This document shows, in pieces, positions 24,821 to 45,175 of a stretch of DNA of 45,490 bases. Every line of letters begins with the position of its first letter. Position 1 is the stretch's first letter. This DNA comes from an uncultured Erysipelotrichaceae bacterium (lineage in GTDB: Bacteria; Bacillota_I; Bacilli_A; RF39; UBA660). The notes below the pieces were generated by a model. That model saw only the letters and a program-made list of their open reading frames with translations. It searched no databases and was not told the origin of the DNA. The stretch covers positions 1-45,490 of the forward strand of contig CACZFH010000010.1 of the NCBI GenBank assembly GCA_902780395.1. The letters are read 5' to 3'. The translations under genes and the position numbers were made by a program.

Positions 24821-24849
24821 AAAAAAAAAAGAACTTATTCAAGTTCTTT
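24821..24849 (-). terminator. rmuC terminator
   Basis: AAAGAACTT (24828-24836), loop ATTC, AAGTTCTTT (24841-24849), then T10 on the minus strand. The rmuC stop lies in the hairpin region. Confidence 0.78.
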
Positions 24850-25920
24850 ATTATCTGATTCCTTTATTTTAGCTACATCTACTTGATGAATACTATCAAA
24901 CTTTTTAGCAATCTTATCAGATGTAATAGATATATTTTCTACATCTTTATTAACAGTCTGAATACTTCGAGCAAGTTTATCCCATCTTTCTCTATAACGA
25001 GCAAATTCCAATCCAAGTTTATTCAATTCTTCATGAATAATAGAGGTATATTTATCTCTTTCAATATTCTTTATAATCATTTGAATAACCGTTAAAGTTG
25101 AGATTAAAGTAGTTGGACTAGTAATCCAAACTCTTTTTCTATAAGCATATTCAATAATGTCAGCATGATAAGCATTTACCTCTGCAAAAATAGCTTCTGC
25201 TGGTAAAAATAAAATAGCTTGATTAGTTGTTTCTCCAGCAATAATATACTTACTACTAATTGCATCAATATGCTTTTTCATATCCTGTTTAAATTGCTTT
25301 TCATAATGTTCCCTTGCTTCTAATGAATTCTTTTTATCAACCATCATTTGATAATGCTCCAATGGAAACTTTGAATCAATACAAATTGTACCTAAAGGTT
25401 CTGGTGCAAATAATACCGAATCAGCAATAACTCCTGTACTAAGAGTATATTGAAGTCGATAAATAGCGTCATTCTTTTCTCCAAAGACACTTACTAAAAT
25501 ATGCTTCAAATTAACCTCTCCATATATACCTCTAGCTTTCTTATCTGTTAAAACACTTTGTAAACTAACAATATCAGTAGATAAAGATTCTATTTTCTTT
25601 TGAGCCTCATCAATCTTAGATAATCTCTCAATAACATTCATAAATGTTTTATTAGTTTTCTCAAAATTCTGATCTAATCTTTCATTTACTTTTTCATTAA
25701 TCATTAATAGTCTTTTTTCCACTTTTTCATTTAATTTATTAAAATCTTCATTCATATTACGATTCAAATCAGTTTTGAAGTCACCCATCTCTTTCATCAT
25801 ACTAACTTCTAACTGACCTAATCTATCTGTAATATGTGCTTCATTAATATTTTTCATTAAAGAAATAACCGTTAAAATAATTAATATAACTAATAAAATA
25901 ATAATTACAATATCCATCAT
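24835..25920 (-). CDS. rmuC: RmuC family DNA recombination protein
   Basis: 361 residues. An N-terminal membrane helix (4-22), a long coiled coil (about 30-125), then the RmuC nuclease-like domain (about 135-330: KARGIYGEVNLKHIL, TICIDSKFPLEHYQMM, AILFLPAEAIFAEV). In E. coli RmuC limits recombination at inverted repeats; it is often predicted to be a PD-(D/E)XK-type nuclease. GGGGTGAT precedes two adjacent ATG codons; either could start. Confidence 0.88.
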   Translation of the reverse strand: MMDIVIIILLVILIILTVISLMKNINEAHITDRLGQLEVSMMKEMGDFKTDLNRNMNEDFNKLNEKVEKRLLMINEKVNERLDQNFEKTNKTFMNVIERLSKIDEAQKKIESLSTDIVSLQSVLTDKKARGIYGEVNLKHILVSVFGEKNDAIYRLQYTLSTGVIADSVLFAPEPLGTICIDSKFPLEHYQMMVDKKNSLEAREHYEKQFKQDMKKHIDAISSKYIIAGETTNQAILFLPAEAIFAEVNAYHADIIEYAYRKRVWITSPTTLISTLTVIQMIIKNIERDKYTSIIHEELNKLGLEFARYRERWDKLARSIQTVNKDVENISITSDKIAKKFDSIHQVDVAKIKESDNKELE

Positions 25921-26307: not shown

Positions 26308-27516
26308 CTATCTAACAGTATAAGGTTTTTCTAAAGTTCCTTCACCTTTCTTATATAATATTTTACTATTTAATAAAATAACTGGTCTTACAACAGCATA
26401 ATTACTTGCCGTTTCAGCAGTAACTGCACCATTACGTCCAACTTGGAAAACTGTAGAAGTATTTTCATTATTAGCTGTCACTAACCACCAACTAGACTCT
26501 TTATTAACTAAATAATTGTAGTTTTTACAAGATTTAGTAGAAGCTGATTTACAGTTAGGATCAACCGAAGCATATAAATAGTCTGAAAGAGTTAATAAAC
26601 CATACTTTTGATTTTTCAAAGTTTCCGCACATTCCTCAGTATTATCGTTCTTCTCACTTTTTGGAGAACGCTTAGCTGTACATAAAGAATATGCTAATAT
26701 TCTCGTTTTATCCTTCTTAGAAAGAAGCTTTTCACCATCATCCTTAACAGGATTATCATATATTTTATCTAAGTACTCTTTAACTCTACTAGCACTATAT
26801 CCATTCATTCCAGATTCATATAAACGTTCCTCATTATAACGATCATCCCATGGTTGAGAAAAATGAACGCCTTCATTACTAATTAAATACATTGTATTAT
26901 CAGAAGTAATCTTAACAATACGCCACAAACTTTCACCTAATTTAACATAATTATTAACTATTTCACCACGGAAAACATAACTTCCATTTGCCTGATATAA
27001 TCCATATCCAGAAGTAACAATTGTCTCATTAGCTAATACTTTACGATATAGTTCAATAGTAACATAATCATCTCCACAATTTAAATAAGGAACATATAAA
27101 TAATTAGAACCAGATTTTTCAACTTGTACAACACCAGAACAAGTTTTATCTTCTCCTACATATTCAGGTAAAGGTTTCATTTTACCAGCACTAGCTAAAT
27201 TGCTAGAATCAATTTCAACAATACTACCTTCCTCTAAAGGTAAATGCTCTGGATACTCTTTAAAATAATCAACAGCTGCTTCCTTCATTATGTTTTCGAC
27301 TTCTCTATAAGTATAATTATGTTTTGTAGTAATAGATAATATATACAAAACTAATAATATAAAGACCATAACAAAAATGACAATAAGCATAAAGCGAACC
27401 ATTCTTTTTTTTAAAAAATCATTATTTCCAGATGGTTTTGATTCTTCTACATCATCATCATCATCAAAAATATCATCGGAATCATCCGTTCTTTTTTCAA
27501 TATTAAATTTACCCAT
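26308..27516 (-). CDS. anchored surface protein with pseudopilin-like and DUF6273-like domains
   Basis: 402 residues. Cytoplasmic acidic tail (DDSDDIFDDDDDVEES, 11-26), membrane helix (39-61), then a segment resembling pseudopilin globular domains (about 68-155: YREVENIMKEAAVDYFKEYP, KTCSGVVQV, PYLNCGDDYVT, with a Cys pair), and a C-terminal DUF6273-like domain (about 185-400: GESLWRIVKIT, WWLVTANN, YAVVRPVILLN, GTLEKPYTV). The last domain is shared with the 776-residue surface protein at 8153. Last gene of the Tad/T4SS run, 14 bases after virD4. Possibly a displayed adhesin or exported substrate; inferred. Confidence 0.7.
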   Translation of the reverse strand: MGKFNIEKRTDDSDDIFDDDDDVEESKPSGNNDFLKKRMVRFMLIVIFVMVFILLVLYILSITTKHNYTYREVENIMKEAAVDYFKEYPEHLPLEEGSIVEIDSSNLASAGKMKPLPEYVGEDKTCSGVVQVEKSGSNYLYVPYLNCGDDYVTIELYRKVLANETIVTSGYGLYQANGSYVFRGEIVNNYVKLGESLWRIVKITSDNTMYLISNEGVHFSQPWDDRYNEERLYESGMNGYSASRVKEYLDKIYDNPVKDDGEKLLSKKDKTRILAYSLCTAKRSPKSEKNDNTEECAETLKNQKYGLLTLSDYLYASVDPNCKSASTKSCKNYNYLVNKESSWWLVTANNENTSTVFQVGRNGAVTAETASNYAVVRPVILLNSKILYKKGEGTLEKPYTVR

Positions 27517-27530
27517 ATTTATTAACCTTT

Positions 27531-29939
27531 CTAATTATCAAAGAAGTCATCAAAGAAATCATCATCTCCATCATCATCCAAATTAATAGGACTAGCTGGC
27601 TTAACAGGAACAACTGGAGAACTCTTTTCAGAATCACTTGATAATTTTTCAATATCATTAGACACTGGTGGAATAACTTCCGCCTCTTCTACATCTTTCT
27701 TTTCTTCTTTTTCAACAACATTATCAGTTTGTTGCATCTTTTCTTCTTTTTGTTTTTGTCTATCTTCTTCTTCTAATTGAGCAATTTTAGCATCAATTTT
27801 CTTCATTAACTCAGCAACATCAAAATCAAAATCTTCTTCGCCTGAACCACTTTTTTTATTATCTGAAACCGGTTCAGAAGGTCTAGCAGGTTCTGCATTA
27901 TGTGGTATATCAAACGGATTCATAGATCTTGGAGAAATAGAATCATCAAGAGGTCTTCCCATTGGATTTACCATAGACTCAGGTCTTGGCATTCCTCCTC
28001 CATTCATATCTCTCATCATACTATTTTTAAATTCATCAAAACTTGGTATTGGTCTTTGTGTATCTCTCTCAGGCATTCTAGTTAAGAAATCAGGAATTCC
28101 TCTACTATCTCCCATTCCACCAAATCCTGGAGGTAATGCACCTGCCATATTATTATCCATTCTAAAAGGACTAGGAATACTACTCATCTCAGGGCCTTTT
28201 TCTTCAGCTGAATTCATCATTTCCAATAATTTTTTCTTCTTTTGATTTTTAACAAATTCCTTAATATCAAAAGTCTTAACTTCTTGTTTTTCACGAGAAG
28301 GATACTTAGCTTTAGGATAAGTTACTCCCCAATCTAATTTAAAGTATGGTGTAAACTTGGTCTTAAAAGGTTGCTTACGCATACGCATGATAATAACTTC
28401 AAATTGTTTCATTCTTTGTAAATCAGAAACCGTAACAAGTGGCGTAGAAGCTGTCTTATCATCCTTTTTAGATTTTTCTTCTCCACACATTTTAGATATT
28501 TCTTCCAAAGCCTTTAACTCTGTTGTAATCAAATAAATGATATTACCACAGTTACCACGAATTGTTTCAGCCTCTTCTTTTCCATAAACATCATCTAATT
28601 GAGCAAAGTTCTGAATAATCATAGTAAAACGAATAAGTCTTGAACGAGCAGCAGTAATCATAGTAGTAACATCTTTCAAAGGTGGCATATTAGCAAACTC
28701 ATCTAGTAAGAAATTTGTTCTAACAGGAAGTTTTCCACCAGATTGTTGTGCAACATTAATTAAAGTTTCATATATTTGCTTTAATAAAATTGTAACTAAA
28801 GAATGATAAGTCTTCTTTTCATCTTGAATAACTATATAAACAGCTGTAGGTTTTTTTCCAATACTCTCTAAATCAATATCAGAGTGACTTAACATTTCAG
28901 ATAAATTATCACGAGAAGCAAACAATTTAACCTTTTGTTTAAATACTGATAAAATACTTCCTTTTGTCTCATTTGGTGCCATTATAGTACTAGAAGCATT
29001 TATAGCCGCAGCACTAGAAGGATCTTTAGCTGCAAAATACTCCTTAATATAAGTAGAACCACCAAACTTTTCTTCACCAACAGTAGTTGCTAAAGAAATA
29101 CTATTAATATTAATTTCTTCTTCCTTAGCATCTTCAAATAAACCTAAAGCAACTCCCGAAAAATAATCAGCAGAAGTTTTTTCCCAGAAAGGATCGGCAT
29201 TTTTATTAGAATCATCATACAAGATATTCAAAGCCAAGTCATCCAATAACTCGATTGCTTTATCTTGATTTCCCATTTTATACATCTTATAAGGTAAAGA
29301 CATTGGATTCCAAGCATTACCATTTTGTGGATCACGGAAATTTAAAAGTAAGATTTGATATCCTCTAGCTCTTAACATATTACTAGTCTTTTCATAAATC
29401 TCACCCTTAGGGTCAGTAATAATCATAGATTCTTTAGCTTTTGCTAACGAATGAACCATTGGTAAAATAACTGTCTGAGTTTTACCAGAACCAGTAGCAC
29501 CAATTACTAATGAATGGTACTCACCATTATCTACCCACATATTCTTATCATTTAAAATAAGTGGTATTCCTGCTGCTTTAGCATTCTTTGCTTGAATTGG
29601 AACACAACTTAGCTCAGCTTGTATTTCCTTATCTTTTGCCCATCTAGAATAACCTTTATCTTTCTTACCAACAATAATACCTGGAAGTCCACTTTCTCTT
29701 TCAAAAAACATAGAACTAACACTACCAAATAATCCTAATAAACCTAATAAATATAAAGAAATAGTAGAAAGCAAATAATCAGGTCCAAAAGCAGGAAGTG
29801 GATTTAATCCAGCAAACTGTCCTTCTGATGCGAAAGAATGAATATTCACAATACAGATTGCAACAATATATAACAAAAAAACTGCAAACATAATAAAGAT
29901 TATTAAATCTTCTGAATCTGCACGAAATTTAAACTTCAT
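27531..29939 (-). CDS. VirD4/TraG-type coupling ATPase
   Basis: 802 residues. Two membrane helices (about 12-34 and 54-77), then a P-loop domain with Walker A GATGSGKT (about 147-154) and Walker B NFLLDEF, as in T4SS coupling proteins that bring substrates to the channel. A tail of some 230 residues is unusual: Met/Pro/Gly-rich, then a coiled coil (AELMKKIDAKIAQLEEE), then an Asp/Phe end (DDDGDDDFFDDFFDN). The ATG at 29939 was chosen because GGAG lies 9 bases upstream; a TTG at 29948 touches that site. It has its own promoter inside the end of the preceding gene. Confidence 0.9.
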   Translation of the reverse strand: MKFKFRADSEDLIIFIMFAVFLLYIVAICIVNIHSFASEGQFAGLNPLPAFGPDYLLSTISLYLLGLLGLFGSVSSMFFERESGLPGIIVGKKDKGYSRWAKDKEIQAELSCVPIQAKNAKAAGIPLILNDKNMWVDNGEYHSLVIGATGSGKTQTVILPMVHSLAKAKESMIITDPKGEIYEKTSNMLRARGYQILLLNFRDPQNGNAWNPMSLPYKMYKMGNQDKAIELLDDLALNILYDDSNKNADPFWEKTSADYFSGVALGLFEDAKEEEININSISLATTVGEEKFGGSTYIKEYFAAKDPSSAAAINASSTIMAPNETKGSILSVFKQKVKLFASRDNLSEMLSHSDIDLESIGKKPTAVYIVIQDEKKTYHSLVTILLKQIYETLINVAQQSGGKLPVRTNFLLDEFANMPPLKDVTTMITAARSRLIRFTMIIQNFAQLDDVYGKEEAETIRGNCGNIIYLITTELKALEEISKMCGEEKSKKDDKTASTPLVTVSDLQRMKQFEVIIMRMRKQPFKTKFTPYFKLDWGVTYPKAKYPSREKQEVKTFDIKEFVKNQKKKKLLEMMNSAEEKGPEMSSIPSPFRMDNNMAGALPPGFGGMGDSRGIPDFLTRMPERDTQRPIPSFDEFKNSMMRDMNGGGMPRPESMVNPMGRPLDDSISPRSMNPFDIPHNAEPARPSEPVSDNKKSGSGEEDFDFDVAELMKKIDAKIAQLEEEDRQKQKEEKMQQTDNVVEKEEKKDVEEAEVIPPVSNDIEKLSSDSEKSSPVVPVKPASPINLDDDGDDDFFDDFFDN

Positions 29940-29962
29940 ATATGACAACTCCTTCTTTCTAT

Positions 29963-29991
29963 ATTATACAATTATTCACTAGAAATTGCAA
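29963..29991 (-). promoter_or_regulatory. internal promoter before virD4
   Basis: Minus strand TTGCAA (29986-29991), 17-base spacer, TATAAT (29963-29968), located in the last codons of the VCBS-like gene. Confidence 0.65.
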
Positions 29992-30748
29992 TTTTAAATG
30001 CATTATCACGATACTGATAAAGCATATGAATTGGCTCAGAGATACTAAATCCACCACAACTTAAAATAAACTCATAAATAGAATCATCATTAACATCTAA
30101 AAAACTAGTAAAATATGGTTTACAAATATTAAAAGAATTACCTCCATCAAGATATTGATAAATCATTGATATTTGCTCATCTTTTACCATATAAACAAAA
30201 GAAAATGTAGTATCAACTTCATCTTGAGTAAAAGCATTACTAACAATATAAAAATCTTCTATAGAACCATCATGATCAAAATCAAAAGGAACATGATAAG
30301 CTGATGTTAATTCACTACTTAAAGAAATATTATACCTCTTTAAAACCTCATTAACAGAAGAATAATCTTCAATTTCTTCTTCTGAAAAAGGATAGAAGGA
30401 TAATTTGTAATTGCCCATATAAGCCAACAAATCACCTTCTAATGAAACAGCTTCTTTATTATCATCAAAAGCATACCATTGATCATCATGCCAAAGCAAA
30501 TAATCTCCAACATATTCTTGATTAGAATAAACATGATATTTCTTCCAATTTAAGTCATAACGACCTAAATTTTTACTCAAATTAAGCCATTGTTTTTCAT
30601 TATATTGCCAAACCGTATTATGTCCAAGTAATATGGTTAAGTTTTGTTTACTACTCTTAATTTCATCTAATCCAAATAAGTAAAACATGACACAGAAAAA
30701 TACTATAAAGATTATTATAAGAAATATATATATTTTCCTAATTTTCAT
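29972..30748 (-). CDS. anchored extracytoplasmic protein with VCBS-like repeats
   Basis: 258 residues. One N-terminal membrane helix (7-27), then an exported domain. Two Asp-rich loops, DFDHDGSIEDFYIV (about 170-183) and DVNDDSIYEFIL (about 216-227), look like VCBS/FG-GAP calcium-binding beta-propeller repeats; the earlier half has WHDDQWYAFDD. Its place between the wall-hydrolase gene and virD4, 8 bases from the former, suggests an outward part of the secretion machine. No known T4SS subunit is matched; a VirB8-like role cannot be excluded. Confidence 0.6.
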   Translation of the reverse strand: MKIRKIYIFLIIIFIVFFCVMFYLFGLDEIKSSKQNLTILLGHNTVWQYNEKQWLNLSKNLGRYDLNWKKYHVYSNQEYVGDYLLWHDDQWYAFDDNKEAVSLEGDLLAYMGNYKLSFYPFSEEEIEDYSSVNEVLKRYNISLSSELTSAYHVPFDFDHDGSIEDFYIVSNAFTQDEVDTTFSFVYMVKDEQISMIYQYLDGGNSFNICKPYFTSFLDVNDDSIYEFILSCGGFSISEPIHMLYQYRDNAFKIAISSE

Positions 30749-30756
30749 TTTATCAC

Positions 30757-33165
30757 CTAACTTACTTTAAAATATGCCAAAGAAGAAGTATTTGCCCAAT
30801 TATATTGACCCCATAAATCAGTAGACTTACTACCTGGATCCATCATAGTAACTTTATCACCATTAACTGAATCAATAGCAACCCAATGTTGACCAGTACT
30901 TCCTTTAACTTCTGCTACTACATAAATATTTTTTTGAGAAGTTAATTCTTTTATTTTATTCAATTTTTGTTGCTTACTAAATTCAGATACATCAATTTTT
31001 TCTTGAAATACAAAAGATGGAGCAACATTTTTAGTCGAAGGCCAATAAAAATTACCACCTGATACAAAACCACCAACTTTATTTAATTTCTGTACAAAAG
31101 TTCCAGGATTAAAATCAGTAATATTGGTCTCAACGCCACTTCTAGCCATTTGAATTGCCACAGAAGTTACTAAACATCCAATTTGTTTAATTGTTTTTCC
31201 ACTACTACCTAAAGTGATAGAAGTCCAAGGGCCTTCATATTGCTTCCAATTTTTATATCCTGAAGTTTGACAATTAGCAATATCACAATTATTTCTTTGA
31301 ATATCAGTTGCTCCAAAATTATAATCTCCTTGATTATACGCTTGAAGCAAAATTTGTTTATAAGACATATTCTTTTTACCATATGAATCCATTTTAGCTT
31401 GTAAAGTCGAATTATAACTAGTACGAATAACATATCCTTGTTGATTTACTAATACCTCTCCATAAGTTTGAGAAGCATAAGTACGTAAAGGAGACTCTTT
31501 ATCTAAAGGATCTTTTCTATATCCTTTATTGTATGAAAGACCACTATGTATTTGTCCCCACTGACCACTATCAGAAGAACAACCTTTATCAGGATTACAA
31601 AATACTTGATCTAACGTACAACTAGCAGCTTGAATAACCCACTTATCTCCTTCTTTTTTTAGTGTTCTCCAGCCACCATCCAAATGACGAGATAAGATAT
31701 AACTACGAGCTGCAATTAATTGCGCTTTAAAAACTTCAGGTGAAGCCCCTCCATGCTCACCATAAGCTACTCCTAAAACATAAGTTTCAAAAGGAACTAA
31801 TTCTTCTCCAGCCAATGGCTGACCAAAAGTTCCTCCATAATTATGCAAAACACCATTACCATCTGTAAAGGAACCACACTGCATTAGACGAACATATAAA
31901 TTAGATAGCTGTAATTCCTCCGAAACATTACCCCTACTTTTAACATAAAAGCCTTTTATATTATAAGTACAAATTCCAGAAGAACAAGTTGACATGGTAT
32001 AATCCGAAGAAGATGAAGCAAAAGGATCTTCCCCAATATAAGAATAATAATTTTTTATATACTCAAATACTTGATCAGCCATTAGTTCTCTTTTTTCATA
32101 ACTAGAATTTGGAAAAAAGGTAGGAAAAACAGCATTAATTAAATTACTTCTAAATCGCTCCTCACTATATTCATTACCATCAAACATCATATTAGCAATA
32201 TATGATATCATATACTCTGTCATATCTTCATAATCAATACTAGAACCATTTTGTCTTAACACATAATAAACCGCTGCTACTTTCAAACCATCTAAAGTTC
32301 TTCCCCTAGCTTGCATTTCTAATTTAACATTACTAACACGTTGATAAAATTCTTCTTGTCTCGTAGTAGCAGATTGATAAGTAACATTTCCTGTAGACCC
32401 ACCAGTTATATTACTAATTCCCCATGCATCACTAAATGCAAGATTCCAAAGAAAAGAAGGAATCAAAGATGTTATAATTGTGATAAACAATAATAATAAA
32501 ATTATAAAAACAAATACACCTATAATAATCATCTTAGGCAAACTTATTTTTCCAAAAAAATTATTATTATTCTTTTTTCCACCAAACAAAGTGCTTGAAG
32601 CACTTTGCTCTTCTTCAGTACCTTCTGCAGTAGATTTTTTTGATTTTTTATCATCTAATTCGCTGCCTTCTTCCTCATTTGCATCATCATTTTTCTTAGA
32701 AGATTTATTAAATAAAGAACTATCTTCATCACTATTATTAGAGGGCCTTTTCATAGCAGCATCAGCACTTTCATTGGCATCAACACCACGATTATTAGAA
32801 ACAGAAGAAGGAAGAGATTGTCCTCCTCCCATTCCTGCTTGACCGCCTCTTAAACCTGAACCCATTCTAGAGGCTTTTCCAACTTTATCACCTAAACCGC
32901 TTTCATTAATACCATTAGAAAGGTTTTGAAGTTTTTTACCGAATGGTGACGTACGGCTAGCAGCATCAACACCTTTTCCTAAAAGCCTACTACTTTTTCC
33001 ATTAGTCAATGCATTTGCTCCTTTTACAGCCATACCAGCTGCTACCCCATAAGGATTTTTAGAAGCAATTGCCACATCTGCAGCATTATTAATATTTTGT
33101 GCATTATTATTTATATTTCGCTCTTTTTCAGCTTCATGATCATCATGATTAGCTTCATACGCCAC
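30757..33165 (-). CDS. T4SS-linked SpoIID/C39-like cell-wall enzyme
   Basis: About 802 residues. A disordered, Gly/Asn/Ser-rich cytoplasmic region (1-210), one membrane helix (213-238), a helical exported region (about 265-390), a SpoIID/LytB domain (about 455-620) with the likely catalytic Glu474 in GVAYGEHGG, and a C39-like cysteine peptidase (about 645-806) with Cys668 in IGCLVTS, His764 in QHWVAID and Asp780 in MMDPGS. SpoIID domains cleave peptidoglycan glycans; C39-like domains cleave peptides. Together they could open the wall for the channel, replacing the usual SLT-NlpC/P60 enzyme. Start uncertain: several GTG codons from 33177 to 33165; the last has AGGTGG upstream. Residue numbers count from the GTG at 33177. 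Confidence 0.8.
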   Translation of the reverse strand: MAYEANHDDHEAEKERNINNNAQNINNAADVAIASKNPYGVAAGMAVKGANALTNGKSSRLLGKGVDAASRTSPFGKKLQNLSNGINESGLGDKVGKASRMGSGLRGGQAGMGGGQSLPSSVSNNRGVDANESADAAMKRPSNNSDEDSSLFNKSSKKNDDANEEEGSELDDKKSKKSTAEGTEEEQSASSTLFGGKKNNNNFFGKISLPKMIIIGVFVFIILLLLFITIITSLIPSFLWNLAFSDAWGISNITGGSTGNVTYQSATTRQEEFYQRVSNVKLEMQARGRTLDGLKVAAVYYVLRQNGSSIDYEDMTEYMISYIANMMFDGNEYSEERFRSNLINAVFPTFFPNSSYEKRELMADQVFEYIKNYYSYIGEDPFASSSSDYTMSTCSSGICTYNIKGFYVKSRGNVSEELQLSNLYVRLMQCGSFTDGNGVLHNYGGTFGQPLAGEELVPFETYVLGVAYGEHGGASPEVFKAQLIAARSYILSRHLDGGWRTLKKEGDKWVIQAASCTLDQVFCNPDKGCSSDSGQWGQIHSGLSYNKGYRKDPLDKESPLRTYASQTYGEVLVNQQGYVIRTSYNSTLQAKMDSYGKKNMSYKQILLQAYNQGDYNFGATDIQRNNCDIANCQTSGYKNWKQYEGPWTSITLGSSGKTIKQIGCLVTSVAIQMARSGVETNITDFNPGTFVQKLNKVGGFVSGGNFYWPSTKNVAPSFVFQEKIDVSEFSKQQKLNKIKELTSQKNIYVVAEVKGSTGQHWVAIDSVNGDKVTMMDPGSKSTDLWGQYNWANTSSLAYFKVS

Positions 33166-33189
33166 AGTCACCACCACCTAACTAACTAA

Positions 33190-34980: not shown

Positions 34981-35531
34981 GCAGGCATCACCGTTCCAAA
35001 TTCAGTTTTACTTCCTCCATTTAGGAAATTTTCAAGAAGTAATTTTAAATCTTCATTACTAATCAAAGAAGCGTTTAATCCACAAGTTCCCAAACCACTA
35101 ATCATTTGACGAACTTGTTTCTGTAATAATTCCGTATCTTTTCCTTTAAATAGGAAGAAATACTCTGTATCAACAACATTATTACGAATAAAAGTTTCCC
35201 CCTTATCAATATCTTGCATAATTAATTTACGAATAGCAGGAGATGACGTTTCATTAAGCAATAATTGCATCTGAGACATATAAACTGATATATCAACTGG
35301 TCTATCCGCAACAACCAACCAAAATTCATAATCAATTGTATTATAAAAATTACGAAGCCCAATCAATACATTACTCTGAGTTCCAGGATCCAAAATAAAG
35401 ATATTTCTAGGAGTAATCTTAACTCCCGTAACTTTATAATTATCTCTCGTAATAATCATATTATTTTGTATGGCTCTTACAGGTAACCAATCTTCTGTAA
35501 AACCACTTTTACTTTTCTTTTTCTTCGCCAT
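34977..35531 (-). CDS. VirB4 N-terminal domain as a separate protein
   Basis: 184 residues. The opening (TEDWLPVRAIQNNMIITRDNYKVTGVKITPRNIFIL) and the following SNVLIGLRNFYNTIDYEFWLVVADRPVDISVYM match the N-terminal domain of TraE/VirB4 proteins of Firmicute conjugation systems. No ATPase motif. It overlaps the PrgI gene by 23 bases and the ATPase gene by 4, so all three are co-translated. Probably binds the ATPase part to restore a full VirB4. Confidence 0.8.
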   Translation of the reverse strand: MAKKKKSKSGFTEDWLPVRAIQNNMIITRDNYKVTGVKITPRNIFILDPGTQSNVLIGLRNFYNTIDYEFWLVVADRPVDISVYMSQMQLLLNETSSPAIRKLIMQDIDKGETFIRNNVVDTEYFFLFKGKDTELLQKQVRQMISGLGTCGLNASLISNEDLKLLLENFLNGGSKTEFGTVMPA

Positions 35532-35829
35532 TCTTATAACACCAACCTTTCCAACGATAAGTTTGTCGATTCGTTAAAAACTCATACAATTCAACTATAA
35601 CAGTAAGCATATTATGATAATAAGGTAATGGCATAACCAAAAAAGCTGAAATTAAACCAGGTGCCAATATTAAAATTGTAACAAAAGTACTATTAAGTGG
35701 CATAAAAGCTAACAATACCATTGTTATTAATATACCAGTAGTTACTAATGCTAAATCAAAAGGTCTAAACCATCCCAATAATAATTTTCCCCTTTTTGTA
35801 TTTGCAGGGATCAAATATTGATTATACAT
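35509..35829 (-). CDS. PrgI/VirB3-like membrane protein
   Basis: 106 residues. A PrgI-type pattern: YLIPANTKRGKLLLGWFRPFDL, two close membrane helices (about 27-68), LPYYHNMLTVIVELYEFLTNRQTYRWKGW at the end. In Gram-positive T4SS this small protein precedes VirB4 and fills the VirB3 role, as it does here. Confidence 0.88.
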   Translation of the reverse strand: MYNQYLIPANTKRGKLLLGWFRPFDLALVTTGILITMVLLAFMPLNSTFVTILILAPGLISAFLVMPLPYYHNMLTVIVELYEFLTNRQTYRWKGWCYKNGEEKEK

Positions 35830-35850: not shown

Positions 35851-37977
35851 CTATTTTTTTTGCTGATTATTTGCATTTCTTATTGTCTGGCTCATACCGC
35901 CACGACCTCTACCAGCATTTGTATCAGAAACATAAGTATTAGCCGCACCAATAGTTGCTCCATAAGTATCTAGGTCAGTAACATCAAATGTCCTTATAAC
36001 TTCAGTAGTAGAACCTTGAACAGCTGATTGTACATTAGTAATCATAGAAGCAAGTTTTTCAGTTCCAGTTGACATTTGTCTATAACTTTTACCACCAGTT
36101 TTAGTTGCACCACCAGGCTGCATCCAAGCTTTAACTTGTGCTTTTCTTCCACCTTCAACACTTATTTGAGAAATTTCACTTTTTCTAAATATATGATCAC
36201 CATGACTATCTCTATAAACAAACTCATCATCATTAGAACTTTTCCAGGCATTATCCCATCGTTCTCCATCAAATTCAATATCTGTTCCATTCATTCTATA
36301 ATTAACCGCAGCACCATTTTTTATACCTTCTTCTTCGGTAGTAGCTTTTAACTTTGCAATTAATTCACTAGCCTTACTAGTATTTTCTAATACTCTATTT
36401 CCTGAAGAAGCCAAAGACTCACCAGAAACTAATCCATAAGCAGAATCAAGAAATTTACCAGGTAAAGTCTGATGACCCCTACGTGCTGCATTTCTAGCTG
36501 ACTGAGCATCTAAAACTTTTTTTAAATTTCCATCTTTTTCACTGAAAGCTTTTCCACCAGTATAAAGTCCTCCAACAGCCCCAGCAGCAGTTGATCCAGC
36601 AGTCCTAAAAGCCCTAAATACATTAGCAGGCAAACTATCTCCATATAATTGTTGTCCCTCTTTGCTAGCTGCTCTAAAGTTAGTAACTGCACCACCTATT
36701 GCACCAGCTGCCACAGCTCCAACACCTAGAGCTTCTCCAATACCACTAAATAATCCAAATTTAGTATCACTTTTTATACCTAATACACTTTTAATAAAAG
36801 CTGGAGCTTGTTTAGCAAAAACAAATAAACCAACCCATAGTATTATCCAAGAAATAATACCTATAGTACCTATACCATGCTGTATTACAACACCCTTTTC
36901 TATCATATCTTGGATTAAGAAAATAACAAAATAGACTACTGCTAAACGGATAAATAAATCAATATAAGTAGAAGTTAATGTTTTAACCCAAGAATTAAAT
37001 GCTCCATCTTTTCCACCTTTTGGATCCATATAACTAATTATAGGAATTGGAGCAAGCAATCTCAAAACAGCCAACTTAACACCACGAACAGCAACATCAA
37101 TTGTAAAACTCAATAAAATAGCCGCAAAACCAAATCCAACAATCATTGATATTAATCCAGTATAAGCAAATACATAAAAACTATCTCCAGGATTCAATGT
37201 ATTCCGTGGATTTATTTTAGGATCAGCTTTACATGTTAGCTTAACCATATCAATAATATCACCAGGATCAACGTCTTGCTTAATATAAGTTTGTAAAGCA
37301 AGATCATCAATAGTAGGACACACACGAACATCATTAAAAATAGCCGGATCATCTTTATCATAATTATGAGTAGTAGGCCATTGGTCTTCTGGTAATAAAT
37401 TAATACGATAAAAACCCTTTAAAATAGTAGAACTAAAAGAACGTGCTGCCTTTGCCAACTTTTCCTCTTCAGTTTTTGCAACTGTATCATCATCAGAAAA
37501 AAAGCTATTATGAGTACTTCCACCTAATACTAATCGACCTATTGTATTATTTTCCAACAAACGATGTTGTAAATCAAACAAAGTTCCAAATAAAATACCA
37601 TTATTACTAATTTGTTTTTCTAATTGATTAGAACCACCAGTTCTAAAAGGTACCAATAGTGTTAACAATATAAGAGAAACAGCTATACGATATATTAAAT
37701 TAGCACCACCTGATTTAGCATCCATAAAAGAATCAGGATTAACTATTCCTTTTAAAATAGTCATAGCTAATTGAAACATCATATAAACACCAATAATAAG
37801 TTGAACTCTTCCAAAGAAATCCATAATTGTTTGATTACCAAAAAGATCAGCTGAAGCTACATTAAAAAATAATTGATAAATAATAGTTAATAACCAATAA
37901 GCTGGTCTATCAAAAAAAGAAAAAACACTACGAATAAGATCGCTTGTTTGATCAGCAGGACTAATTTGACTATTCAT
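35851..37977 (-). CDS. VirB6/TrbL-like polytopic channel protein
   Basis: 708 residues. About six membrane helices within residues 25-425 (including TLTSTYIDLFIRLAVVYFVIF), separated by an exported loop of some 130 residues (about 115-245) with two or three cysteines. The C-terminal 280 residues are soluble, beginning with a Gly/Ala-rich AVAAGAIGGAVTNF stretch. Such VirB6/TrbL proteins form the membrane core of the T4SS. AGAGGTGAA precedes the ATG. It lies between the VirB2-like pilin and PrgI. Confidence 0.82.
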   Translation of the reverse strand: MNSQISPADQTSDLIRSVFSFFDRPAYWLLTIIYQLFFNVASADLFGNQTIMDFFGRVQLIIGVYMMFQLAMTILKGIVNPDSFMDAKSGGANLIYRIAVSLILLTLLVPFRTGGSNQLEKQISNNGILFGTLFDLQHRLLENNTIGRLVLGGSTHNSFFSDDDTVAKTEEEKLAKAARSFSSTILKGFYRINLLPEDQWPTTHNYDKDDPAIFNDVRVCPTIDDLALQTYIKQDVDPGDIIDMVKLTCKADPKINPRNTLNPGDSFYVFAYTGLISMIVGFGFAAILLSFTIDVAVRGVKLAVLRLLAPIPIISYMDPKGGKDGAFNSWVKTLTSTYIDLFIRLAVVYFVIFLIQDMIEKGVVIQHGIGTIGIISWIILWVGLFVFAKQAPAFIKSVLGIKSDTKFGLFSGIGEALGVGAVAAGAIGGAVTNFRAASKEGQQLYGDSLPANVFRAFRTAGSTAAGAVGGLYTGGKAFSEKDGNLKKVLDAQSARNAARRGHQTLPGKFLDSAYGLVSGESLASSGNRVLENTSKASELIAKLKATTEEEGIKNGAAVNYRMNGTDIEFDGERWDNAWKSSNDDEFVYRDSHGDHIFRKSEISQISVEGGRKAQVKAWMQPGGATKTGGKSYRQMSTGTEKLASMITNVQSAVQGSTTEVIRTFDVTDLDTYGATIGAANTYVSDTNAGRGRGGMSQTIRNANNQQKK

Positions 37978-38000: not shown

Positions 38001-38438
38001 TTATTTAATACCACCAGTAGAAGTTCCTGTTAAACCGAAAATATTTAAAGCAAGTTCTACAAGCATTGGAATAAAGAATAAAGATGCAGCTAAAATAAGA
38101 CGAATAATTAACTTCTTTTGAGCTTTAGCCATTGCTTCATCATCATTCTTAATAATAACTTGGGCAAAATCAATACTACTTAAAACAATAACAACAACCG
38201 GACCAACTATTTTAATAACATTGAATACTTGCTGCAATAACCAAGCAACAGATTTTTCATCATCAACATCCCCTAGCAGAGGCTCATTTGCAAGAACCTG
38301 CACCAAATTATATTGATCAGATTTTAACTTTTCATAAGTATTTACTTGATCAGGCACCGTAACAGCATTAACTGATATAGGAGTAAACACCATAAATGTA
38401 AATAACACGATTAAAAAAGCCAAAGAAAACTTCTTCAT
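38001..38438 (-). CDS. VirB2-like pilin with signal peptide
   Basis: 145 residues. Signal peptide ending SVNA (about residue 25), an exported segment of some 40 residues, two membrane helices (about 72-93 and 110-135) with a charged loop KNDDEAMAKAQKKLIIR between, as in TrbC/VirB2 pilins and their Gram-positive equivalents. Paralogous to the next gene upstream. It has its own extended -10 promoter and GGAGTTGA ribosome site. Confidence 0.75.
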   Translation of the reverse strand: MKKFSLAFLIVLFTFMVFTPISVNAVTVPDQVNTYEKLKSDQYNLVQVLANEPLLGDVDDEKSVAWLLQQVFNVIKIVGPVVVIVLSSIDFAQVIIKNDDEAMAKAQKKLIIRLILAASLFFIPMLVELALNIFGLTGTSTGGIK

Positions 38439-38517: not shown

Positions 38518-38856
38518 CTAACCATTTTTAGCAGCTTTCCAGCAATCTGACCATCCACCAGTACCTTCTTCAGCACCAGAGGCAACTACATTCATAACAA
38601 CTCCAACTAGCATTGGAACGAAGAATACTAATGCAGCATAAATAAATCTCTTTATTAATCTATTTTGAGCAGACTTAATCTCCTTTTCATCACTTGCTAT
38701 AACGGCTTTTCCTAAATCAATAGTTCCAAAAACAATCAAAACAATAGGAATTACAATCATAGTAATCCAAATAACATTATAAATAACTTTTACTAGTGGT
38801 AACAAACCACCACAAACCTCAACACCGATTAAAAATAAATCTGACATATTAAACAA
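38518..38856 (-). CDS. VirB2-like pilin without signal peptide
   Basis: 112 residues with two membrane helices (about 22-46 and 66-95) and the loop IASDEKEIKSAQNRLIKRF, the same plan as the neighbouring 145-residue protein, but with no cleavable signal peptide and a short Gly/Trp/Cys tail. The VirB2-type fold is inferred from length, topology and position. Strong promoter upstream, terminator downstream, so it may be the abundant subunit. Confidence 0.72.
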   Translation of the reverse strand: MFNMSDLFLIGVEVCGGLLPLVKVIYNVIWITMIVIPIVLIVFGTIDLGKAVIASDEKEIKSAQNRLIKRFIYAALVFFVPMLVGVVMNVVASGAEEGTGGWSDCWKAAKNG

Positions 38857-38904: not shown

Positions 38905-39969
38905 TTAACGTCTAAATAAACCAAATATCTTACTTGATCCTCCACTATTACTTGGTTTATCACTTGATAATCCAAGTTTTATAATAAACTCATGAATAAT
39001 TCCATTTCGCTTTCTTTCATCCAATGGAGGAATATTATAAAATACTTTAATACCAGCTTCACTCTCAAAATCAAATATATCATTATTTAATAACAAACTC
39101 TGATTTAAAACTACTTTACAATTCAATAGTTTAGAGAAAGCATCTTTATGTGCTCGAATCAAACCATTTAAACGGATTGTACTAGGTTCTATTAAATAAA
39201 CTATATCATGACAGAAATTATCATCTTGGCATTTATTTAAATCAACCAATATAATAGAAGCCTTTGAATACTTTGATATAGTACTAGGTACTTCACTTTC
39301 CCTAATAGAAATCATAGTCTTTTCGTTAAATAATTGGAAATCGTTATTTTCAATTTCAATAGCAATTACATTTTCATGACCATATCTTAAAGATAACTCT
39401 TTTTTCATCATGTAAATTAATGTTGTAGCTCCAGCATGTTCCGTAACATTTCTAAAACCAATGATTTTAGTAGGAATATTAGGATCTTTAGCAACTGGTT
39501 GATAATTATCATTACTATTACTTATAGCACCATTATCACCATCACTATTATTAGAAGAATCACTAGGATCATGAGAATAATCTTTATTAACCATAGTCCT
39601 TATATGAGCAACATCTTCTAATGTATTAGATTTTTTTAATAAATATTTAATCCCATTTACTTTACTAGTAAAATTATAAATACCTAAAGATATCAAATGA
39701 GATAAAAAATTTGGAGTACATAAAGAACTCTTATCAGGTAACAAAAAAATAATTTTTTGTACATCAAGCCCTTGAGCTAAAACTTCATAAGTATGAATAT
39801 CTTTATATTGATTAATAGCAGTAACATCTAAAATCATCTTACTAAAAAAGAAATCCTTAAACATACTTACTAATTCATTTACATCATATGTACCTGATAT
39901 ACTTTTAATAATATCAATATCAAGATTTGTTAATAAATCCTGCTGTTCATTTCCAACAATAACATTCAT
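38905..39969 (-). CDS. TadZ/CpaE-like pilus-positioning protein
   Basis: 354 residues. N-terminal receiver-like domain (1-120), an Asn/Ser/Asp-rich linker (130-160), then a MinD/ParA-like domain (165-335). The P-loop is degenerate: GFRNVTEHAGATT (171-183) lacks both lysines of the deviant Walker A, as in many TadZ proteins that bind nucleotide poorly. TadZ marks the pole or site where a Tad pilus is built. Last Tad gene before the T4SS genes begin. Confidence 0.75.
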   Translation of the reverse strand: MNVIVGNEQQDLLTNLDIDIIKSISGTYDVNELVSMFKDFFFSKMILDVTAINQYKDIHTYEVLAQGLDVQKIIFLLPDKSSLCTPNFLSHLISLGIYNFTSKVNGIKYLLKKSNTLEDVAHIRTMVNKDYSHDPSDSSNNSDGDNGAISNSNDNYQPVAKDPNIPTKIIGFRNVTEHAGATTLIYMMKKELSLRYGHENVIAIEIENNDFQLFNEKTMISIRESEVPSTISKYSKASIILVDLNKCQDDNFCHDIVYLIEPSTIRLNGLIRAHKDAFSKLLNCKVVLNQSLLLNNDIFDFESEAGIKVFYNIPPLDERKRNGIIHEFIIKLGLSSDKPSNSGGSSKIFGLFRR

Positions 39970-39991: not shown

Positions 39992-40480
39992 TTAATCAGC
40001 TACCTCAAAAGATCTTGTATCACCACTAATATAGAAAAATTTAAAATCTATAATATTATTTACAACAGGTATTTGAAGATTAATTTTAGTAACAATTGTA
40101 AAATAATGCTTAGTCTTTACATCAGATAAAGCAACACCTGATTTACCAGATTTTTTAATATAAGAAATACTACTATTACTCTTATCAGAATCAACAATTT
40201 GTTCTCTAACACAATATAATCCTTTAATTTTCTCAAAATTATTTGGACAAGTTAAACTATTATCAATTGTATAACCTATTGTTTTAGCATAATCAGTAAT
40301 TGCTTTCTGACACTCACTACTAGAGCAATCTCCTTTGTAATCTTCATATACAGAAATTATTTTATTTTTCATACGAAAAGCTTTGGTATAATTGACATTA
40401 AATGCCATATAAGCCAAAGCAAAAACAATAAATACAACAATAATCATTAAAGCAACAGTTCCACCTAAAGCGTCTCTCAT
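39992..40480 (-). CDS. TadE/TadF-like pseudopilin A
   Basis: 162 residues. Short leader MRDALG then a membrane helix (about 7-29), then an exported domain with four cysteines (C52, C57, C78, C90) and ending KINLQIPVVNNIIDFKFFYISGDTR. Paralogous to the next gene, sharing leader, the NYTKAFRMKN motif, the cysteine plan and the IPxxNxI...GDTR ending. The G-G after the leader suggests processing by a prepilin peptidase. Probably a minor pilin. Confidence 0.75.
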   Translation of the reverse strand: MRDALGGTVALMIIVVFIVFALAYMAFNVNYTKAFRMKNKIISVYEDYKGDCSSSECQKAITDYAKTIGYTIDNSLTCPNNFEKIKGLYCVREQIVDSDKSNSSISYIKKSGKSGVALSDVKTKHYFTIVTKINLQIPVVNNIIDFKFFYISGDTRSFEVAD

Positions 40481-40488
40481 TATATCAC

Positions 40489-40926
40489 CTAACCTCTATC
40501 AATCACTCTTGTATCTCCATGGACTTGAAAGAAATCCATACTAAGTATTTTATTAATAATAGGAATATTAATATCAACTTGAGTAACAACCGTATACACA
40601 TAGTGATTTCCAGAAGTAGAATCAGCTTTCTTATAACAGAAATAATTATCACTCTTAGTATAACCTGTTGAACAATTTAAATTATTATTTGGAAAGTAGC
40701 CGATGCTTCTAGCGCCATCTTGAATTCTTGTTCTACAATCAGATTGTCCACTTGTTTTATCACTAAAACAACCAAAACCTTCATATCTTTCAATAGCAGA
40801 TATGACAACATTCTTCATGCGGAAAGCTTTTGAATAATTTACAGCTAACCCTAGTATTCCTTCTACTAAAACAAGAAATACTACTATCAAAACAAGATTT
40901 AAAATACCACCAAAAGCATCTTTCAT
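40489..40926 (-). CDS. TadE/TadF-like pseudopilin B
   Basis: 145 residues, paralogue of pseudopilin A: leader MKDAFG, membrane helix (about 7-29), NYSKAFRMKN, four cysteines (C53, C64, C85, C97) and the ending VDINIPIINKILSMDFFQVHGDTR. AAGGAGATAG ribosome site. It lies 8 bases before pseudopilin A. Confidence 0.78.
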   Translation of the reverse strand: MKDAFGGILNLVLIVVFLVLVEGILGLAVNYSKAFRMKNVVISAIERYEGFGCFSDKTSGQSDCRTRIQDGARSIGYFPNNNLNCSTGYTKSDNYFCYKKADSTSGNHYVYTVVTQVDINIPIINKILSMDFFQVHGDTRVIDRG

Positions 40927-41209: not shown

Positions 41210-42013
41210 TTAAAACATCATCATCATAGATACCAAAATAACTAACATAACACCAATACCAGTAACAACAAGCATTACCATAGTTTGGCTTTCCATATGA
41301 TTTAATCTTTCTTTATATTTTGTTTCTCGAGCTTTATTTTGTAAACTAGACACTGTTCTAGAAAACATCATAAGTCTTTCCTGTTTTCTCTCTTGCGAAC
41401 CAATTCCTAAACGATATAACAATCTCATCATTCTAACAGAATCTCTAACAGGATATGTATTAGCAAATTCCATATATGGATCAACTGTAGAATCACCAGA
41501 ATTAATTCTATCAATCATTCTTCTTAAACCAGGTTTAAATATATCAGGTGCATCTCCAATTGACTTACCAATAGCAACAGGAACCGTATAGTGTTGAATC
41601 AAAATCTCTAAACTTTTCAAATAATAAGGTAACATTATATCTATTTCATGCAAATGTTGTTTATAAAAACCTTTTAATTGAGTATAAGGAACTTTAAACA
41701 CTACAACAGCAACAACTATAGATAAAACTAAATTTAAAAAGAATTGGGAATTAATAATCTCAACAGAAGCATTTCCTGAAATAGAAAATACTAATACTAT
41801 TAAAAATGCAATAAATGCATAAGTAACACGTTTAGAATACAATTGATCAACATCTACATCTTCTCCATAACGAGCATATACTAAGAATTGATAATCGTCT
41901 TCTTTAAACGCCTCTAAATATTTTTGATTATCAGCAAAAAATTTATCTTTATCAATTGTATTATTATATATTAATATAAAGACAATAATTGCTCCTACTA
42001 CTAATATCTCCAT
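41210..42013 (-). CDS. tadC: TadC-like pilus platform protein
   Basis: 267 residues. Membrane helices near 5-20, 67-83, 86-104 and 245-267, with a cytoplasmic T2SSF-type helical domain (HEIDIMLPYYLKSLEILIQ, PFRDSV-like turn, LGIGSQERKQERLMMF). Partner of TadB in the inner-membrane platform. Its start shares one base with the stop of tadB. Confidence 0.82.
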   Translation of the reverse strand: MEILVVGAIIVFILIYNNTIDKDKFFADNQKYLEAFKEDDYQFLVYARYGEDVDVDQLYSKRVTYAFIAFLIVLVFSISGNASVEIINSQFFLNLVLSIVVAVVVFKVPYTQLKGFYKQHLHEIDIMLPYYLKSLEILIQHYTVPVAIGKSIGDAPDIFKPGLRRMIDRINSGDSTVDPYMEFANTYPVRDSVRMMRLLYRLGIGSQERKQERLMMFSRTVSSLQNKARETKYKERLNHMESQTMVMLVVTGIGVMLVILVSMMMMF

Positions 42014-42915
42014 TACTCAGCACCTACATTCTCATTATAATATTTTTCTCCTTTTAAAAGGAAATAGGTATTTACAATTAAAACAAAATGCATTAAAAAC
42101 TGAATATACCATCTTTGTAACAAAACAAGATAAGTTTCTCTTCCTAATAAATATTGAACTAACATAACTAACAAATATAACATGATACCAAATTGTAGAA
42201 ATGATTTATGGAAAGATGCTCTTTCAATACGGTCTCTATAAACACTCTCTACTAACATATCAATATCTTGTTGCATGTTTTCCAAAGAATCAGCTGAGTT
42301 TTGAGCTCCTTCTTTCGTAATTTGTAAAAACAACTGATGCATATTTTTAACAATATAATATGGATATAGTTTACTCATATAATCAAGAGCTTCATCTATA
42401 GTACCATTATCATAACTCATATTAATCATTTGTCTTACATCACTTAAAACAGGATCTTCCAATACCCCAGAGTTAGCAACACCCTCTAACGCCTTAACAA
42501 AAGATTGAGTAGTTGCAAATTCCATAATAGTATTAGAAGTATATACTTGTATCTGCTCAAATAAAAATTCAGAATAAACTTTCTTATATCTTAAATATGC
42601 CAAATAAGGAACAAAACTAACAGCAATTAATGCATAAATAATACTAATTATTAAATTATAAAAGTATAAATAACTAATTACAGCAGCAAAACTAGCAAAA
42701 ACAGTAACTTGTAATGCATATTGTCTAGGAGTATAATCCTGACCTAACTGTTTTGTTTTCTCTCTTACTACTTTAAAAGAATAAGGAGAAAATCTATCAT
42801 ACATACTTTGTGCTTGATCAATTACATATTTACCAACATTTTCACCTTTATAATTCCAATATAAATAAAGGAATAAAAACAAGCCAGCTAAGAAAAACAA
42901 CTCTTCAAAATACAT
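42013..42915 (-). CDS. tadB: TadB-like pilus platform protein
   Basis: 300 residues. An N-terminal helix (3-19), two close helices (about 70-108), a T2SSF domain (FLFEQIQVYTSNTIMEFATTQSFVKALEGVA), and two C-terminal helices (about 240-290). Forms the pilus platform with TadC. AAGGAGATGA precedes the ATG, 17 bases after tadA. Confidence 0.82.
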   Translation of the reverse strand: MYFEELFFLAGLFLFLYLYWNYKGENVGKYVIDQAQSMYDRFSPYSFKVVREKTKQLGQDYTPRQYALQVTVFASFAAVISYLYFYNLIISIIYALIAVSFVPYLAYLRYKKVYSEFLFEQIQVYTSNTIMEFATTQSFVKALEGVANSGVLEDPVLSDVRQMINMSYDNGTIDEALDYMSKLYPYYIVKNMHQLFLQITKEGAQNSADSLENMQQDIDMLVESVYRDRIERASFHKSFLQFGIMLYLLVMLVQYLLGRETYLVLLQRWYIQFLMHFVLIVNTYFLLKGEKYYNENVGAE

Positions 42916-44359: not shown

Positions 44360-45175
44360 TTAATCTGTCCAATATGTATGAGTATTAATCCATTCCATTA
44401 ATTGTTCAGAAGATAACTCAAGATTACCAGGTTCATCTTTTAAACTTTCATTAGTTGGAACAAGTTCAATAACCGTATCATATGTTCTCATATAATTTGC
44501 TTTACGAAGTAATACGAAATACTCTTCTGGTAAAGCAAATACTATCATAGCAGGTGTTTTATGTTCGTCTAAGTTTTGGAATACTGCTTGACCATTAGAA
44601 TCTTTAACAGCCAACACTTGAACATTAGATATTAATTTACCATACATAATTTGATCTGCTTTTTGTCTTTCTTCAGCACTTAAATTAGCCTCATCAGAAA
44701 CTTTATAAACTGCTTTTAACCATATATCAATATAATTTCCAGGATATACAGAATTACCATAAGTAGTATTTGTATTAACTGGTAAATTATAAAGAACATA
44801 ACCTTTAGGATACTCTAAAATAATATTAGCAGGTAGTTGTTCTTTCTCAACAACTGCTCTTTTATAGAATAAACTTCCTTCAGGAATAACTGTATCCGCA
44901 GCAGAATACTTATCAATGATTTCACCAACATTAACGATAACTTCACCCTTCAACATAGAAGGAGGTACTTCACGAGTACCTATCATACCTTCAGTAATCT
45001 GAGTTCCAGCATTGATTTGTTTAATGGCATAAGGAACAGTTTGAGGATTAATAGCAGCCTTAACACGCATTGTATAAGCAAAATATAATATAACAATACC
45101 TAGTATTACACCAACAACAGTAACAGTATTTTTATTTTGTAAAAACTTTCTAAAACCAGTAGTTAAATTACCCAT
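44360..45175 (-). CDS. SAF-domain CpaB/RcpC-like protein
   Basis: 271 residues. A membrane helix (about 17-33), then an SAF domain (about 45-115: VPYAIKQINAGTQITEGMI, VIPEGSLFYKRAV) and a CpaB-type C-terminal part with YPGNYIDIWL. In diderms RcpC/CpaB supports the outer-membrane secretin; no secretin is expected here, so in this monoderm-like host it may bind the wall. GGAGAATAA ribosome site. Confidence 0.82.
   Translation of the reverse strand: MGNLTTGFRKFLQNKNTVTVVGVILGIVILYFAYTMRVKAAINPQTVPYAIKQINAGTQITEGMIGTREVPPSMLKGEVIVNVGEIIDKYSAADTVIPEGSLFYKRAVVEKEQLPANIILEYPKGYVLYNLPVNTNTTYGNSVYPGNYIDIWLKAVYKVSDEANLSAEERQKADQIMYGKLISNVQVLAVKDSNGQAVFQNLDEHKTPAMIVFALPEEYFVLLRKANYMRTYDTVIELVPTNESLKDEPGNLELSSEQLMEWINTHTYWTD

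Follow-up and report, generated by a model that had tools for sequence, protein, structure and literature searches.

The Gene Cluster and Its Predicted Wall Hydrolase

On the minus strand of the window (i. e., the whole stretch of 45,490 nucleotides that was analysed), a gene for a predicted wall hydrolase with a SpoIID and a C39-like domain is embedded in a cluster of T4SS-type and Tad-like genes (Table 1). In the direction of transcription, this cluster comprises genes for a CpaB-like protein, a TadA/CpaF/VirB11-type ATPase, a pair of membrane proteins of TadB/TadC size, two small anchored proteins, and a TadZ-like candidate, followed by two VirB2-like pilins, a VirB6/TrbL-like protein, a VirB3-like candidate, VirB4 (divided over two genes), and the hydrolase, behind which lie a 258-aa protein, VirD4, a DUF6273 protein, a rhodanese, and RmuC. 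The T4SS link put forward in the preliminary description of the locus holds well beyond the window: in each of the first 20 relatives inspected, the hydrolase gene has VirB4 as its immediate upstream neighbour, and VirD4 is the second gene after it.

Table 1. Features of the hydrolase locus in order of transcription, with domains listed below their gene; residue numbers refer to the 806-aa frame.
Feature	Position	Strand	Basis
CpaB/RcpC-like protein	44360..45175	-	TIGR03177 E 6.7e-8 (below cut-off); PF16976 E 4.1e-6 (just below); PF08666 SAF above cut-off
TadA/CpaF/VirB11-type ATPase	42933..44327	-	PF00437 E 1.2e-27; TIGR02788 E 3.7e-33; TIGR03819 E 5.8e-29
TadB-like membrane protein	42013..42915	-	position and size; no PDB match
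TadC-like membrane protein	41210..42013	-	position and size; model pLDDT 68.8, meaningless fold matches
Small N-terminally anchored protein, putatively TadE-like	40489..40926	-	layout
Small N-terminally anchored protein, putatively TadE-like	39992..40480	-	layout
TadZ/CpaE-like candidate	38905..39969	-	motif NVTEHAGATTL only; no PDB match
VirB2-like pilin	38518..38856	-	PF18895 E 0.00043, below cut-off
VirB2-like pilin	38001..38438	-	PF18895 E 0.0026, below cut-off; length in relatives about 130-501 aa
VirB6/TrbL-like membrane protein	35851..37977	-	PF19597 E 3.7e-6, 26.9 bits (cut-off 27)
Small membrane protein, putatively VirB3/PrgI-like	35509..35829	-	position and size; no family match; syntenic
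VirB4 N-terminal part as separate gene, 184 aa	34977..35531	-	NF045975 E 2e-14, profile 95-277
VirB4 ATPase part, 596 aa	33190..34980	-	NF045975 E 1.7e-101; in 160/186 family genomes
Wall-hydrolase gene, SpoIID + C39-like, VirB1 position	30757..33165	-	probable GTG start 33165, longest frame to 33177
N-terminal region, low-complexity, predicted cytoplasmic, residues 5-213	32539..33165	-	composition and hydropathy
Single transmembrane helix, about residues 214-238	32464..32538	-	Kyte-Doolittle
Helical juxtamembrane domain, residues 262-384	32026..32394	-	AlphaFold2 model and profile search of slot proteins
SpoIID domain, structural match residues 401-630, Pfam 460-530, catalytic Glu474	31288..31977	-	Pfam, fold, PDB profile
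C39-like papain-fold peptidase domain, residues 638-806; Gln646, Cys668, His764, Asp780	30760..31266	-	conservation, Pfam, fold
258-aa membrane-anchored protein between hydrolase and VirD4, fast evolving	29972..30748	-
VirD4 coupling ATPase	27531..29948	-	NF045973 303 bits (cut-off 250); PF02534 E 9.7e-57
DUF6273 membrane protein, syntenic	26308..27516	-
RmuC, chromosomal flank conserved beside cluster	24835..25920	-

With regard to the Tad-like half, the TadA-type ATPase and the CpaB/RcpC-like protein give clear family-level matches, although the ATPase scores about alike as VirB11 (3.7e-33) and as TadA (5.8e-29), with both values below the NCBIfam equivalog cut-offs. The TadB and TadC candidates matched no family, a profile comparison between the two gave no support for homology, and profiles of the TadB-like, VirB4-N, and TadZ-like families retrieved nothing from the PDB. 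As the identities of TadB/TadC and TadZ are thus unproven after these tests, "Tad/T4SS hybrid" is used here as a working description only.

Counted from its first GTG, the hydrolase frame has 806 codons (30757-33177, minus strand). A product started at the later GTG at 33165 (VAYEAN...) aligns with the MAYEAN/MAYQAK starts of its relatives, and since these begin at the residue matching the fifth codon, the true gene is probably 30757-33165 with 802 aa (residue numbers in this text follow the 806-aa frame; for the 802-aa protein, 4 is to be subtracted). From N- to C-terminus, the protein consists of a disordered region, one membrane helix, a helical domain, the SpoIID domain, and the C39-like papain-fold domain. 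Residues 1-210 are enriched in Asn, Ser, Gly, Ala, and Lys and evolve fast (mean p-distance 0.73), while a hydropathy scan places the membrane helix at roughly residues 210-245; the following part (residues 245-806) was modelled by AlphaFold2 with a mean pLDDT of 90.6. The predicted orientation would leave the N-terminal region in the cytoplasm and expose both the glycan- and the peptide-cutting domain outside the membrane anchor, as is characteristic of VirB1-type enzymes. Searches with the full-length protein returned zero relatives in viral contigs, phages, and plasmids.

The SpoIID Domain

In the window protein, PF08486 matches residues 460-530 (E 2.5e-5, 25.3 bits versus a cut-off of 23), and the same family is matched by all 65 sequences of an alignment of relatives (best E 1.2e-13). 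Searched against the PDB, the profile of this alignment finds only SpoIID, namely the proteins of B. anthracis (E 9.6e-7) and C. difficile (E 1e-5). Residues 401-630 of the predicted model accordingly superimpose on C. difficile SpoIID (5i1t) with a Z-score of 13.1 over 153 residues at 2.7 Å, and further fold matches of this part include SleC (9h68, Z 12.5) and 4rwr (Z 9.8). The profile alignment places Glu474 on Glu101 of C. difficile SpoIID, a residue essential for activity of that enzyme (PMC6221140); it is kept in 64 of the 65 aligned sequences, the exception being locus L101 with Lys.

A second conserved block lies near the end of the domain (YKQIL, aligned with YYDIL in C. difficile). 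From the helix with the catalytic Glu to this C-terminal YxxIL helix, there are about 98 profile positions here versus about 196 residues in 5txu, and the middle of the domain is about 100 residues shorter than in C. difficile SpoIID. The missing central segment is typical of sporulation SpoIID and is not demanded by the Pfam model. Judged by its sequence, the domain therefore appears to be that of a compact SpoIID-domain protein, not a sporulation SpoIID, and its activity should not be assumed, since some 100 central residues of the known enzymes are absent. Cys527 and Cys533 are invariant throughout the 65 sequences and might form a zinc site, although the alignment gave no clear correspondence to the zinc site of C. 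difficile.

The genome encodes Spo0A, and the SpoIID domain could in principle serve engulfment during sporulation, with the T4SS neighbourhood being incidental. Such a role is extremely improbable, however, as relatives consistently have the gene between VirB4 and VirD4, other hydrolases replace SpoIID in several lineages (see below), and a second SpoIID gene is located elsewhere in the same genome (contig C16).

The C39-like Domain

The window protein alone gives a weak hint of a C39 peptidase (PF03412, E 0.034, below cut-off), and 14 of the 65 aligned relatives match Peptidase_C39_2 (PF13529, best E 3.8e-6). The modelled residues 638-806 resemble the C39 peptidase of PCAT1 (Z about 11), a C39-like peptidase of B. 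anthracis (3erv, Z 10.0), and also the pseudomurein endoisopeptidase PeiR (Z 11.9), i. e., the predicted C39 fold is papain-like. Across the alignment, Gln646, Cys668, and His764 are present in 65/65 sequences and Asp780 in 64/64, so that a putative Cys-His-Asp triad and its oxyanion Gln occur in the expected order. Taken alone, this domain found no relatives in phages and two weak matches in plasmids. A "24145-aa open frame" of genome G126 with a C39 match proved to be masked N sequence and was discarded.

The SpoIID and C39 matches, together with the residue conservation, are far beyond chance. The architecture anticipated in the preliminary description, that is, a SpoIID-like glycan cutter with Glu474 and a C39-like peptide cutter with Cys668, His764, and Asp780 behind a disordered region of about 210 residues, is recovered, including the cytoplasmic side predicted for the latter region ahead of its single helix. 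The proposed family searches succeeded for PF08486 and gave a hint of C39 below cut-off in the window protein itself, with PF13529 found in 14 relatives, and structure prediction returned both the SpoIID fold (Z 13.1) and a papain-like fold (Z 10-12). A loss of the catalytic residues in all homologues, named beforehand as an observation that would speak against the proposal, did not occur; they are kept in essentially all 65.

A Modular Enzyme Slot Behind VirB4

The SpoIID-C39 combination is found in 71 of 80 named loci, while the others have CHAP, M23, VanY, or a second C39 in addition or as a replacement. For 20 further genomes in which protein searches detected no relative, the gene after VirB4 was inspected, and 18 of these carry wall-hydrolase domains in this slot, for example, M23, CHAP (two of these assignments being pairwise profile matches only), NlpC/P60, SpoIID with NlpC/P60 and Amidase_3, SpoIID with glucosaminidase, or M23 with phage lysozyme, among others. 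In the remaining two (L179 and L182), the gene after VirB4 is unrelated. Many of the 20 genomes preserve the order VirB4, slot, a protein of about 235 aa, and VirD4. When the slot proteins of 87 genomes are mapped on their VirB4 tree, at least 18 changes of the peptidase set and at least 7 changes in the presence of SpoIID are required. ICE-type clusters of the host's family, furthermore, encode a C39-only membrane protein directly after VirB4. SpoIID-C39 is thus one of many module combinations in the slot, which refines the preliminary description. Its proposal of an alternative solution to wall opening is, by analogy with these replacements and with the C39 module of the ICE-type clusters, well supported.

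The helical juxtamembrane domain, a possible docking scaffold, was detected in many slot variants and in one slot protein that lacks SpoIID (L183, E 2e-5). That it would be a constant scaffold of all slot proteins was confirmed only in part, as the domain was not detected in most of those without SpoIID.

Because SpoIID and C39 are replaced by established wall hydrolases, wall cutting suggests itself as the shared function of the slot, and the repeated replacement by recognised peptidoglycan hydrolases at the same place also speaks most strongly for peptidoglycan as the target of the C39-like part. In the main rival reading, cutting is left to SpoIID alone and the C39-like domain has a regulatory role, either by binding the wall or by autoinhibition, for which PrgK offers a precedent with its LytM and CHAP domains, both without activity (PMC11323569). 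We consider this unlikely, since Gln646, Cys668, His764, and Asp780 are retained in essentially all relatives, whereas the LytM domain of PrgK has lost its metal ligands (although PrgK CHAP retains Cys and His and is still inactive). Moreover, a mere regulator would be difficult to reconcile with the exchange of the C39-like domain for other peptidase families or with the C39 domain that occupies the VirB1 slot of ICE-type clusters alone.

The exposed parts of the machine evolve very fast, with mean p-distances of 0.58 for the hydrolase and 0.64 for its 258-aa neighbour as compared to 0.18 for VirB4. This and the frequent module exchange, both of which resemble adaptation to varied targets, as well as the surface proteins and sortase encoded upstream in relatives, would be in keeping with an anti-bacterial weapon, in which the machine presents or delivers the enzyme against the walls of neighbouring cells. 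Such a weapon nonetheless seems quite unlikely: an effector that is released would not be expected to have a membrane-helix anchor and a long N-terminal region, no gene was recognised as conferring immunity, and the position fits VirB1 enzymes, which act on the cell's own wall.

Distribution and Inheritance of the Machine

At a threshold of E <= 1e-100, the VirB4 of the window is matched in 160 of the 186 genomes of the host's family, which represent 132 of its 148 genera, usually in single copy and with 66-88 % identity. In a sample of the class (296 genomes), no VirB4 match outside the family exceeded 34 % identity. The named relatives are Bacilli MAGs, mostly from the gut, including Candidatus Faecimonas and Candidatus Onthousia, which we take to be associated with the RF39 group. 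A few weaker VirB4 matches (e. g., in genomes G018, G083, and G094) may be ICE copies.

Gene order is shared across 20 relatives, with the RmuC/rhodanese flank present where contigs extend that far. In 18 relatives, pairwise VirB4 distances track those of trigger factor (rho 0.83, reached in 0 of 500 permutations), as do those of VirD4 (rho 0.82). Linkage alone does not explain this congruence, since trigger factor and the cluster lie on separate contigs in 12 of these relatives and share one in the other 6. Pfam searches detected no relaxase among the annotated ORFs of the window; PF03432 relaxase matches in this genome are restricted to other, small contigs, one of which (C54) carries the relaxase next to a separate ICE-like VirB4 (33 % identical) and an M23 protein.

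From VirB4 and VirD4, both of which fall into ICE-related models (NF045975 and NF045973), one might suspect a conventional integrative conjugative element that uses the enzyme as its transfer hydrolase. This is highly improbable in view of the lack of a relaxase match among the window's ORFs, the near-core and mostly single-copy presence, the conserved RmuC flank, the congruence with trigger factor, and the distinct VirB4 beside a relaxase on contig C54. With no relaxase detected in the window and with divergence that parallels that of trigger factor, the machine is chromosomal, near-core, and passed on vertically, as opposed to an ICE or conjugative element, which is a second point in which the preliminary description is refined.

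Relation to Known Systems

Gram-positive VirB1-like hydrolases such as TraG of pIP501, Orf14 of Tn916, and PrgK of pCF10 are anchored in the membrane and carry domains for glycan and peptide cutting on the outside of the cell, often preceded by an intracellular N-terminal part, and belong to T4SSs of the VirB4 type; some carry an NlpC/P60-type peptidase. The enzyme described here resembles them in these respects and is likewise encoded in a cluster with VirB4, VirB6, and VirD4. A 2025 T4SS review describes the VirB1 classes ALPHA, BETA, and DELTA as SLT/muramidase domains with CHAP and/or LytM, with SpoIID unmentioned (PMC12857230), whereas here the glycan cutter would be SpoIID and the peptidase C39-like. 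By this analogy, the enzyme is best read as VirB1-like in role and outside the described VirB1 domain classes, that is, as a putative new domain class. Our literature searches found no report of a SpoIID-based VirB1, and SpoIID, VirB1, and conjugation appeared together only in a Thermus genome paper; nothing was found that joins Tad with VirB4 or RF39 with T4SS.

With the SpoIID lytic transglycosylases of C. difficile and B. anthracis, the domain has the fold, the catalytic Glu, and a conserved core in common, but it differs by the absence of about 100 central residues, by the fused peptidase, and by its place in a T4SS cluster instead of a sporulation locus. Phages and conjugative elements encode polyvalent proteins, a few of which also contain a SpoIID-like domain that was proposed to breach peptidoglycan during invasion (PMC5512222); those are large multi-domain proteins of mobile elements, in contrast to the anchored VirB1-type enzyme considered here.

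For the machine as a whole, the closest precedent is the near-core, relaxase-free chromosomal T4SS of Patescibacteria, which is likewise widespread, mostly relaxase-free, centred on VirB4, equipped with VirB2-like pilins, and akin to monoderm conjugation machinery (PMC12102498). It belongs to another phylum, and neither a linkage to CpaB/TadA-type genes nor a modular SpoIID hydrolase is known from it (PMC12102498). Conjugation machinery appears to have been fixed for a different purpose not only in Patescibacteria but, with this relaxase-free and near-core chromosomal cluster, also in uncultured gut Bacilli.

Proposed Function

We propose that the hydrolase acts in the manner of VirB1 to open peptidoglycan for a T4SS-type machine that is fixed in the chromosome and vertically inherited within one family of gut Bacilli, a reading based on modelling and analogy to which we assign a probability of about 0.78. 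The N-terminal region and the helical domain would tether the enzyme to the T4SS at the membrane, where the C39-like domain may cleave stem peptides or cross-bridges and the SpoIID domain may next cleave the locally bared glycan strands, presumably creating a local pore through which a pilus or secretion channel could cross the cell's own wall. This division of labour would correspond to that reported for SpoIIP and SpoIID in spore engulfment, for which peptide removal followed by glycan cutting was described and where C. difficile SpoIID works after peptide stripping by SpoIIP (PMC6221140). SpoIIP and SpoIID are, however, two separate sporulation proteins, and SpoIIP is not papain-like, whereas here one chain would hold both activities, and the fused peptidase may allow a single protein to perform both steps locally at the T4SS. 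A chlamydial SpoIID homologue was found to cleave intact peptidoglycan as well (PMC6635528). In our reading, host lineages retain the slot and repeatedly swap its cutting modules.

A bolder formulation, which we advance tentatively and rate somewhat below even odds, is that the two-step logic of engulfment (peptides stripped, glycan cut) has been rebuilt in one polypeptide, which would serve as the drill in a near-core nanomachine of hybrid Tad/T4SS type. A whole family of gut Bacilli would have taken this machine from conjugation and domesticated it for a task other than conjugation, and the drill bit would be an adaptable module that is exchanged repeatedly. As a natural experiment, the modular slot allows one to compare which pairs of domains are sufficient to open the wall. 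With the proposed enzyme, a SpoIID and C39-like pair would join the set by which T4SSs of Gram-positives pass a thick wall, and SpoIID-domain genes would gain a role outside sporulation and division. Peptidoglycan synthesis by the host is indicated by five Mur ligase matches in its genome.

Organization and Genomic Surroundings of the Cluster

In the window, CpaB/TadA-type genes are mixed with VirB2/4/6/D4-type genes in a single operon-like order (24835-45175), and this near-core, relaxase-free cluster is confined to one gut Bacilli family. VirB4 is split between two genes (window 33190-35531), one for the N-terminal part (184 aa) and the other for the ATPase part (596 aa), an arrangement that is kept family-wide. 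The second VirB2-like pilin (window 38001-38438; loci L033-L050 in relatives) varies in length among relatives from approximately 130 to 501 aa, while its core region is retained despite these differences.

In one relative (L137, 2-9745), the region upstream of CpaB carries a sortase gene together with genes for two further named types, a GDSL/PGA_cap protein and an Ig-like surface protein, as well as for DUF5411 and a protein of 911 aa; genes related to this set are likewise found 5′ of the cluster in other relatives. In genome G126, a YfhO-type membrane protein gene (L141, 14018-16372) lies between the TadC-like gene and the genes for small anchored proteins. An open frame of 24145 aa on contig C2 of the same genome was rejected as an artefact of masked N sequence.

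Variation at the Position after VirB4

The SpoIID/C39-like hydrolase itself varies among relatives. A single relative (L101, 10001-12358) has the catalytic Glu of SpoIID replaced by Lys, with the C39 triad intact. In two further loci (L123, 7838-11446; L125, 7856-11263), the helical juxtamembrane domain is apparently interrupted by VanY and CHAP domains, resulting in four-module hydrolases of 1100-1200 aa. In two genomes (L179, L182), VirB4 is followed by unrelated genes, encoding a nuclease/transposase-like and a pyruvate phosphate dikinase-like protein; here, the hydrolase seems to have been lost or relocated.

ICE-type clusters of the same family encode, immediately 3′ of VirB4, a membrane protein of 546-547 aa with solely a C39-like domain, which is an additional type of putative VirB1-position enzyme.

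C39-only membrane proteins encoded after VirB4
Locus	Coordinates	Setting
L167	13959-15602	ICE-type cluster
L168	3624-5267	ICE-type cluster
L170	11393-13033	ICE-type cluster

The host genome also holds a separate ICE-like fragment (L171, G000:C54), in which VirB4 (786 aa) is directly followed by an M23 peptidase and which includes a relaxase.
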